A stretch of DNA of 20,878 nucleotides from a virus. The translations under genes and the position numbers were made by a program. The notes under the pieces are model-generated. The model did no database searches, had not been told where the DNA came from, and saw only the letters and a list, made by a program, of their open reading frames with translations. The stretch is taken from positions 1 to 20,878 of IMG/VR virus record IMGVR_UViG_3300042503_001359. One strand, given 5' to 3'. Within the stretch, counting starts at the first letter, position 1; each line of letters starts with the position of its first letter. Below are positions 36-20,323 of this stretch, piece after piece.

Positions 36-70
36 GAGGATTCCTCCAAAGAAATGAGATTTTTAGGTCC

Positions 71-154
71 CGTTCCTTCGGGCGGTTTGCGTCCCATTGG
101 GATGAACGTTCCGTTCCGCCGTCCTACTTGCGTCAGAGTTTTCTCTGATGAACG
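71..154 (-). ncRNA. Glutamine-riboswitch-like leader RNA (glnA / downstream-peptide type)
   Basis: Read on the minus strand, three blocks appear in the order remembered for the glutamine riboswitch: CGTTCATC (154-147), GACGCAAGTAGG (134-123) and CCGAAGGAACG (81-71). CGTTC (154-150) can pair with GAACG (75-71) as P1. AGAG-AAAA-CTCT forms a second stem right after the first block. GGCGG (120-116) pairs with CCGCC (85-81) as a third stem. The third stem encloses what looks like part of a second aptamer (CGTTCATC at 108-101, then GGGACGCAAA), so this may be a tandem or nested duplication. A promoter lies about 25 bases upstream and a DUF4278-like gene starts 36 bases downstream. The consensus is from memory; a covariance search would settle it. 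Confidence 0.72.
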
Positions 155-177
155 TAAGGTCATACTAGACCTATTGC

Positions 178-205
178 AGTATATAGTCAAATAAAATTGT
201 AACAA
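178..205 (-). promoter_or_regulatory. Promoter for the riboswitch-like leader
   Basis: A -10 box TATACT lies at 183-178 and a -35-like TTGTTA at 205-200, spaced by 16 bases. The -35 falls inside the 3' arm of the terminator hairpin of the preceding gene. Transcription would begin near 172, about 18 bases before the aptamer. Confidence 0.5.
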
Positions 206-218
206 GAGTTACAATTTT
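185..218 (-). terminator. Terminator after the 60-aa hypothetical gene
   Basis: There is a perfect 11-bp stem (AAAATTGTAAC / GTTACAATTTT, 218-208 and 203-193) with a 4-base loop, followed on the minus strand by TTTTATTT. It lies 6 bases past the stop of the upstream gene and overlaps the next promoter. Confidence 0.7.
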
Positions 219-6135: not shown

Positions 6136-6227
6136 GGGAAATGGTGGAGTTACTATTTCCCAGTCACCCTCAGACTGGGTATGAGAGACGTAATTTATAC
6201 ACCCCATAGGTCTCGGTTAGTGGGTGT
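6136..6227 (-). ncRNA. Structured psbA 5' leader (candidate PhotoRC-type RNA)
   Basis: The leader between the psbA promoter and start is about 160 bases. It contains several perfect stems. ACACCC / GGGTGT spans 6199-6227 and GAGAC / GTCTC spans 6185-6214. CCCAGTC / GACTGGG at 6159-6179 has a 7-base loop. GGGAAAT / ATTTCCC spans 6136-6161. The last two share bases 6159-6161 and so compete. PhotoRC-I and PhotoRC-II are described RNA motifs found upstream of psbA in cyanobacteria and cyanophages; this leader is a candidate, but I cannot check the consensus. Confidence 0.5.
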
Positions 6228-6269
6228 TACAAAGATTAAAGAACTGTTACATTCCTTAACCTGTTGATG

Positions 6270-20153: not shown

Positions 20154-20182
20154 ATCATACTAAAAAAGGGGGGTCTTGTAAA
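20154..20182 (-). promoter_or_regulatory. Promoter of the sugar operon
   Basis: A -35 TTTACA (20182-20177), a 17-base spacer and -10 TATGAT (20159-20154). The -35 lies in the loop of the preceding terminator, as at 10260-10288. An inverted repeat TTAGTAT / ATACTAA (20145-20163) overlaps the -10 and might be an operator. The leader to the epimerase ATG is about 30 bases. Confidence 0.62.
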
Positions 20183-20190
20183 CCCCCCTT
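20162..20190 (-). terminator. Terminator upstream of the sugar operon
   Basis: A strong stem AAGGGGGGT / ACCCCCCTT with a 7-base loop is followed by six Ts on the minus strand. It ends transcripts coming from the 20201-20878 genes. Confidence 0.87.
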
Positions 20191-20200
20191 ATAATAAATT

Positions 20201-20323
20201 TTATTTTTTAACTGGAATAATAACCAGGCGGGAGTTATCCCATCCGCACCACCAATTCTTTAGAGAAATTGGAAACTCAATCAGTTGTTCGATTTCTTGG
20301 CTCCACCACCTAGTTTTACTTAA
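20201..20323 (-). other. Open reading frame without a start (possible gene remnant)
   Basis: Between the small membrane gene and the terminator, one minus-strand frame stays open to a TAA at 20203-20201. It encodes a Trp-rich, protein-like stretch (RWWSQEIEQLIEFPISLKNW, then CGWDNSRLVIIPVKK). It has no ATG or GTG; an in-frame TAG lies just upstream at 20326. It begins within the last codons of the upstream gene in a +1 frame. It may be the decayed or frameshifted end of a gene, or be reached by ribosomal frameshifting. Confidence 0.35.

Follow-up and report, generated by a model that had tools for sequence, protein, structure and literature searches.

A second, circularly permuted junction nested within a glutamine-I-like leader of cyanophages

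The leader of a DUF4278-type gene at the end of a viral contig holds the conserved strands of a glutamine-riboswitch-like RNA twice over, and raises the question of whether they form two aptamers in a row or one aptamer inside another. The window, which is the whole contig of 20,878 bases, bears psbA, psbD, and PhotoRC-II and wcaG RNAs and is therefore taken to belong to a cyanophage. The two RNAs are known cyanophage elements: the PhotoRC-II RNA lies 5' of psbA (6145-6239, minus strand, 85.4 bits) and the wcaG RNA lies at 20176-20280 (minus strand, 60.9 bits).

Judged by its sequence, the minus strand at 154-70, 5' of the DUF4278-type gene, is a glutamine-I-like riboswitch leader of a virus of marine cyanobacteria. 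The element is very probably the minimal, ORF-less form of a cyanophage-specific composite glutamine-I riboswitch with a nested, permuted second junction. An earlier note on this DNA had described a glutamine-riboswitch-like RNA with a second aptamer copy nested in its third stem. The kind of RNA is borne out by the half matches to the Rfam glutamine-I model and by the same leader in relatives, and the nesting by compensatory changes among those relatives. The extent of 36-218 given there has shrunk to a structured core at 154-70, and the note had missed the circular permutation of the inner copy and the ORFs inside the P2 loops of most relatives.

The element in the window

All features described here lie on the minus strand. 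Read from 220 to 1, they follow one another as an NtcA-like box, a promoter, the element at 154-70, a ribosome site and the gene start. The conserved blocks were found in the order that had been claimed for them: a first CGTTCATC (154-147), GACGCAAGTAGG (134-123), GGCGGAACG (120-112), a second CGTTCATC (108-101), GGGACGCAAACC (95-84) and CCGAAGGAACG (81-71).

The 5' strand of the outer P1, CGUUC (150-154), pairs with 75-71. It is followed by the P2a hairpin UCAGAG-AAAA-CUCUGA (133-148) and by the outer junction strand CGCAAGUA (125-132), which contains the ligand-site base G131, the long-range-pair base C130 and the 5' strand of the E-loop, AGUA (128-125), and which matches the glutamine-I structure (PMC6698751). 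The 5' strand of the shared P3, GGACGG (119-124), pairs with CCGCCC (80-85) with one mismatch, A122.C82; the third stem had been placed at 120-116/85-81, which is a wrong register for 124-119/85-80. Inside P3 lie the inner permuted P1 hairpin GAACG-GAA-CGUUC (104-116, with 116-112 paired to 108-104), the P2b hairpin UCCC-AAU-GGGA (92-102) and the inner junction CGCAAA (86-91). The inner junction carries the inner ligand-site bases G90 and C89, which are conserved in relatives, and has no AGUA E-loop. The last strands, at 70-79, are the 3' strand of the E-loop, GAA (79-77), the 3' strand of the outer P1, GAACG (75-71), and the long-range-pair base G70; they are invariant or compensated among relatives.

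In a search of 400 nt, the Rfam glutamine-I model matches 110-67 with 31.5 bits (E=4.5e-5) and 154-112 with 18.5 bits (E=0.18), and the glutamine-II model matches 111-69 with 23.2 bits. The search with these two models, which the earlier note had proposed, gives a glutamine-I match beyond chance at 110-67, yet a weak one: every glutamine-I and glutamine-II score of the window element is below the gathering cut-off (35 bits for RF01739 and 33 bits for RF01704). Folding of 201 nt around the element gives z=-3.3. The same leader precedes homologous genes in S-PM2, Bellamy, S-CAM7, S-H34 and others, and in the S-H34 homologue the outer Rfam match covers the whole 91-nt element and exceeds the cut-off with 43.7 bits. 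At the gathering threshold Rfam detects 1 of 10 loci, and standard annotation overlooks the nested element. As the model handles the insert in P3 poorly, the element is filed as a variant working like glutamine-I and not as a plain member of RF01739.

Pairing among relatives

Relatives were gathered from phage records similar in DNA, from a pattern scan of IMG/VR, from a scan with the downstream protein only and from scans leaving particular strands free. The resulting set of 220 distinct parsed elements consists of related sequences, so that not every compensated cell stands for a separate event. The order of strands is B1 CGUUC, P2a, CGCAAGUA, P3-5', B3 GGAACGG, a short loop, B4 CGUUC, P2b, CGCAAA, P3-3' and B6 GAAGGAACGG. 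A tandem reading pairs B1 with B3 and B4 with B6. The nested reading pairs B1 with B6 on the outside, the two P3 strands in the middle and B3 with B4 on the inside. The E-loop strands AGUA and GAA, both of which are parts of the canonical aptamer, face each other solely under the nested reading.

The outer P1 is complementary in all 214 elements with a readable B1 (200 CGUUC/GGAACG and 14 CGUUU/GAAACG), although conservation in the blocks fixed by a scan is partly selected. The variant scans spare the partner strand: a scan for a changed B6 that left B1 free found a compensating B1 in 16 of the 16 elements with a complete upstream part. The inner P1 is complementary in 214 of 220 elements (176 GGAACG/CGUUC, 36 GCAACG/CGUUG and 2 GAAACG/CGUUU), and in the remaining 6 it is disrupted by an insertion, an endonuclease ORF. 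A scan for a changed B3 with the last base of B4 left free found a compensating B4 in every intact element. The outer (C-G or U-A) and inner (G-C, C-G or A-U) pairs vary independently and are always compensated. Their identities combine separately across several P3 backgrounds and ORF types, and the inner change therefore arose or spread repeatedly; a single clade may account for the outer U-A state.

P3 covaries in both length and sequence: its strands occur in 16 combinations, with 5 to 8 pairs each. Examples are AGUCG/CGACU, AGUCA/UGACU, GAUCG/CGAUU, GGACGG/CCGCCC, GGAAGG/CCUUCC, GCCAACG/CGUUGAC and GAGAUAUG/CAUAUCUU. Its mean paired fraction is 0.89, compared with 0.54 (sd 0.05) after shuffling of strands among the types, in a set for which the parser retained only elements with reasonable P3 pairing. 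The P2a hairpin is supported by covariation. In P2b, pairs 1-4 are formed in each of the 214 elements examined, and compensatory changes occur even where an ORF intervenes; the same holds for the first four positions of all 176 long-loop cases.

When 27 ORF-less elements are aligned, 11 pairs of the nested structure show two-sided changes, and none of 500 shuffles does as well on any measure. The outer P1 and the inner hairpin are recovered unprompted both by RNAalifold and by single-sequence folding of the window's own 84 nt. Among loci selected by the downstream protein only, both halves are present in 69 of 80; most of the other 11 are cut by a contig end or have an endonuclease insertion in the inner P1. 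One locus (L265) has lost the inner P1 and kept the outer junction and P3, and two more (L275 and L290) are variants. The nested element is present at every one of the 14 phage-isolate loci examined. The nested form is absent from the 386 cyanobacterial genomes searched, where the lone pattern match is an unrelated sequence. The nested fold is shown by this covariation; compensatory stem changes in related phages had been set beforehand as the test of the proposal, and they were found in strength.

Reading frames inside the P2 loops

ORFs are lacking in 29 elements, that of the window among them. Most relatives carry a small ORF of about 50-65 codons in one of the P2 loops, inner or outer, or in each of them. 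P2b is the host in about 175 of the 220 relatives, and its loop is 100-250 nt long in 175 of them. The P2b ORF of 170 elements has its ATG directly after the 5' arm of P2b, and in 167 the stop codon, TGA or TAA, is made from the last base of P3 and the first two bases of the E-loop. P2a has a long loop in 56 elements and hosts an ORF in 55 of the 220. Inner loops starting with AG, which places GGAG before the ATG, are found in 121 ORF-bearing elements and in 0 ORF-less ones.

The P2a and P2b ORFs form one family, as illustrated by the P2a ORF of one locus (L031), which is 81% identical to the P2b ORF of S-RIM8 (L011). All aligned members have two cysteines in common, and the family has a hydrophobic start. 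Differences at the three codon positions number 2980, 1203 and 4761, which shows that selection acts at the level of the protein. Matches to the inner-loop family occur in 312 phage records, and in S-SM2, S-CAM4, ACG-2014d and P-SSM4 annotated genes of unknown function lie inside intact nested elements. A Pfam search of the nested ORFs gave nothing above the cut-off. The family corresponds to PHROGs 504 and 13397 (unknown function), and its AlphaFold model (mean pLDDT 79.8) has the invariant cysteines flanking a pair of helices.

The ribosome site of the inner ORF, often GGAG, and its start codon sit in the inner P1 and P2b, so that a closed aptamer should block the inner ORF. Ribosomes traversing this ORF should, for their part, unfold the aptamer.

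A different ORF, resembling GIY-YIG endonucleases, breaks the inner P1 in L252, L323, L441, L484, L490, L491 and L493. It is inserted after GGAG or CGT, reads MIYYTYYSYEPFGRGYIG... in L323 and leaves the outer pairs intact, as if the riboswitch served as its homing site.

Promoter and downstream gene

A sequence resembling an NtcA box, GTAACTCTTGTTAC (GTA-N8-TAC, 199-212), is a candidate NtcA site. GTAN8TAC is found within 110 nt upstream in 119 of 197 distinct homologous regions, compared with 9.4 expected from shuffles (about 13-fold), and is mostly positioned 53-61 nt 5' of B1. A sigma-70-type promoter at 162-190 consists of TTGACT (190-185), 17 nt and TAGTAT (167-162). The corresponding pattern TTGACN-N16-18-TANNNT is present in 137 of the 197 homologues and mostly ends 7-9 nt before P1; for this reason the mRNA should start at or just before P1, and the transcript of the window would begin close to position 155.

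A palindrome lies over the -10 box (158-171), GGTCTAGTATGACC in the window and often GGTCTATAATAGACC in relatives. Its arms have at least 6 pairs in about 130 of 189 relatives, compared with about 4 expected, and it may be an operator or an RNA hairpin of read-through transcripts. A 12-bp inverted repeat at 194-220, TAAAATTGTAAC-TCTT-GTTACAATTTTA, encloses the NtcA-like box and may double as the terminator of the upstream gene.

The downstream gene has its Shine-Dalgarno sequence GGAGG at 43-47 and its ATG at 35-33; it begins MAKVVYRGIEY... and is cut by the contig end (1-35). The DUF4278-like target that had been proposed is confirmed by its homologues, which are small YRG-repeat proteins with a best Pfam DUF4278 match of 27.7 bits (cut-off 25.3). 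According to a review (PMC6316151), cyanobacterial glutamine riboswitches have DUF4278 genes as their main partners and raise expression with glutamine, and the N-terminal part of IF17, the glutamine synthetase inactivating factor, is covered by DUF4278. The claim that the target gene was new thus does not hold. The phage protein would be a small relative of the N-terminal part of IF17.

The hairpin GAGG-AAT-CCTC at the ribosome site, which had been proposed as a gate, is present in the window but absent from relatives, and it was rejected as a conserved gate. No conserved expression platform for the downstream gene was found among the relatives. A small hairpin right after the outer P1 and a pairing of YUAAA/UUURG with the Shine-Dalgarno sequence are modestly enriched over shuffles. 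In many cyanobacterial host glutamine-I loci (L132-L251), P1 is directly followed by CGCCUC, and the ribosome site contains the complementary GAGGCG; this simple translational switch is absent from the phage elements. An additional conserved stretch, ACGGATCC-hairpin-GAGAAGGTT, lies between the outer P1 and the Shine-Dalgarno sequence in L004, L007, L025, L063 and L092. It has no Rfam match at the gathering threshold in the loci searched, and could be an expression platform of its own or another small RNA element.

The inner unit and its possible function

The long-range pair of glutamine-I aptamers is numbered 23:60. The ligand-site bases of these aptamers are C1:G59, G2:C58 and G22 (PMC6698751). 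Their outer counterparts, by sequence, are C154:G71, G153:C72 and G131, and the long-range pair is C130:G70, swapped to C-G as in glutamine-II. The outer junction has all three stems, P1, P2 and P3, each of them compensated in relatives, together with the AGUA/GAA E-loop. From P3 inwards, the strands of the inner unit are GGAACGG, a loop, CGUUCAU, P2b and GACGCAAA. The 3' part of the aptamer comes first and the 5' part follows, which is a permutation closed at P1 and opened at P3. The inner unit retains the ligand-contact and long-range-pair bases of glutamine-I and is devoid of the E-loop.

Covariation shows an outer aptamer made up of P1 (154-150/75-71), P2a and P3 with the E-loop. Rather than ending in a short loop, P3 (124-119/85-80) opens into a second three-way junction, where the same conserved strands, circularly permuted, are closed by GAACG-GAA-CGUUC and possess their own P2b. 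L-glutamine is the presumed ligand, and the conserved nucleotides suggest that both junctions can hold it, the outer one as a full site with the E-loop and the inner one with contact bases and no E-loop. Because P3 is common to both, the junctions are expected to fold and bind jointly, and they would stabilize each other through this helix. The inner junction may, given its missing E-loop, be structural and not ligand-binding. By analogy with host riboswitches, glutamine binding would then lead to more translation of the downstream DUF4278-type protein. As the promoter also bears an NtcA-like box, the unit would read the nitrogen status of the host twice.

Further-reaching is the tentative proposal, to which we give a somewhat less than even chance, that a single helix joins two glutamine pockets whose strands run in opposite order, that the riboswitch also acts as a carrier of genes, and that translation of the P2-loop ORFs and glutamine binding are mutually exclusive. 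The leader would then choose between the small two-cysteine protein at low glutamine and, at high glutamine, the DUF4278 protein, possibly acting on the glutamine synthetase of the host.

Alternative explanations

Two ordinary glutamine-I aptamers in tandem, comparable to the known pseudo-cooperative doublets (PMC9481103), would explain why Rfam gives two side-by-side matches in the window, and the P1 strands of 170 elements would also permit the pairs B1:B3 and B4:B6. However, 38 elements fit the nested pairing only and none fits the tandem pairing exclusively. Neither of the tandem units would own a P3, and the halves of the E-loop would be split between units that are joined through the covarying P3, whereas each unit of real doublets, in SAR86 and other bacteria, has a complete P3 and GAAGGAACG. 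A tandem arrangement is thus highly improbable, and as the sole fold it is ruled out by the compensatory changes; the tandem pairing could be a transient alternative state. A glutamine-II (Downstream-peptide) riboswitch, or one that combines the two classes, would be in line with the RF01704 match at 111-69, the C-G long-range pair, the ending GGAACGGG and the short downstream ORF. Its score of 23.2 bits falls short of the cut-off of 33, the element has no stem for the pseudoknot of CGUUC with a 3' hairpin loop that defines this class, and its outer P1 forms a nested helix at the base of a three-way junction containing an E-loop, which is the plan of glutamine-I. Score and architecture rule out an identity with glutamine-II, and a relationship of this kind has hardly any probability.

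A possible, though doubtful, explanation is that the outer aptamer is the sole glutamine sensor and that the inner junction, having lost glutamine binding, caps P3 structurally and offers ORFs and homing endonucleases a place to settle. The confinement of the AGUA/GAA E-loop to the outer junction speaks for it, as do L265, which keeps the outer junction and P3 without an inner P1, and the several contigs in which GIY-YIG-like ORFs break the inner P1 and spare the outer pairs. Against it, the inner contact bases (CG of B4, ACGG of B3 and CGC of B5) are kept in nearly all elements, and the inner P1 is maintained by compensation in nearly all of them, which would be needless for a mere cap. The composite riboswitch with a permuted second junction is the preferred explanation. 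If confirmed, it would be a natural system in which to test whether sites that share a helix cooperate, whether binding survives the permutation of a pocket, and how ribosome and ligand compete for one RNA. It would also tie widespread marine cyanophages to the nitrogen status of their hosts by a promoter box and an RNA sensor, the latter preceding the gene for a relative of a glutamine synthetase inhibitor.

Comparison with known systems

Glutamine riboswitches have been noted earlier in cyanophages (PMC9964418, PMC9602691) and in other marine phages (PMC9004378). The match in S-CREM1 (99 nt, 44.0 bits; PMC9964418) is consistent with the same nested element. The reviews consulted cover single and tandem aptamers and not an aptamer grafted, permuted, onto an arm of another of its class. 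No published account of the nested permuted layout or of its ORFs was found among the papers surveyed.

The phage element shares with glutamine-I (glnA RNA, RF01739) the P1 CGUUC/GAACG, the P2 hairpin, GACG-AAGUA...GAAGGAACG with the E-loop in P3, and the DUF4278 target. It differs in that P3 of glutamine-I ends in a short loop whereas the phage P3 bears a second, circularly permuted junction, in that the long-range pair is C-G and not G-C, and in that the P2 loops of its relatives hold ORFs. Tandem glutamine-I leaders, of which 157 doublets and 4 triplets have been counted (PMC9481103; see also PMC2864571), likewise have two copies of the conserved strands. Their units are complete, each with its own P1 and P3, and ordinary bacterial glutamine-I aptamers, the SAR86 doublets included, have a short P3 loop and a complete GAAGGAACG each; the phage units are incomplete alone and share one P3, with outer strands pairing to outer and inner to inner ones. 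Glutamine-II (RF01704) resembles the phage element in CGUUCA..GG-CGCA..GGAACGG, in the C-G long-range pair and in its location upstream of short DUF4278 genes in marine cyanobacteria, but the phage element lacks its pseudoknot architecture and scores below its cut-off. The gifB and PMM1846 glutamine riboswitches of cyanobacteria (PMC6316151) have the same family of downstream genes, and the promoter region of PMM1846 has an NtcA motif; these host elements are single aptamers, whereas the phage element is nested.

Mobile introns with ORFs in peripheral loops also hold a protein gene in a loop of a structured RNA with an unbroken core. They are splicing ribozymes, whereas the phage element is a riboswitch-like leader, and the phage P2-loop ORFs are not endonucleases, although the GIY-YIG-like ORF of a few elements is one.
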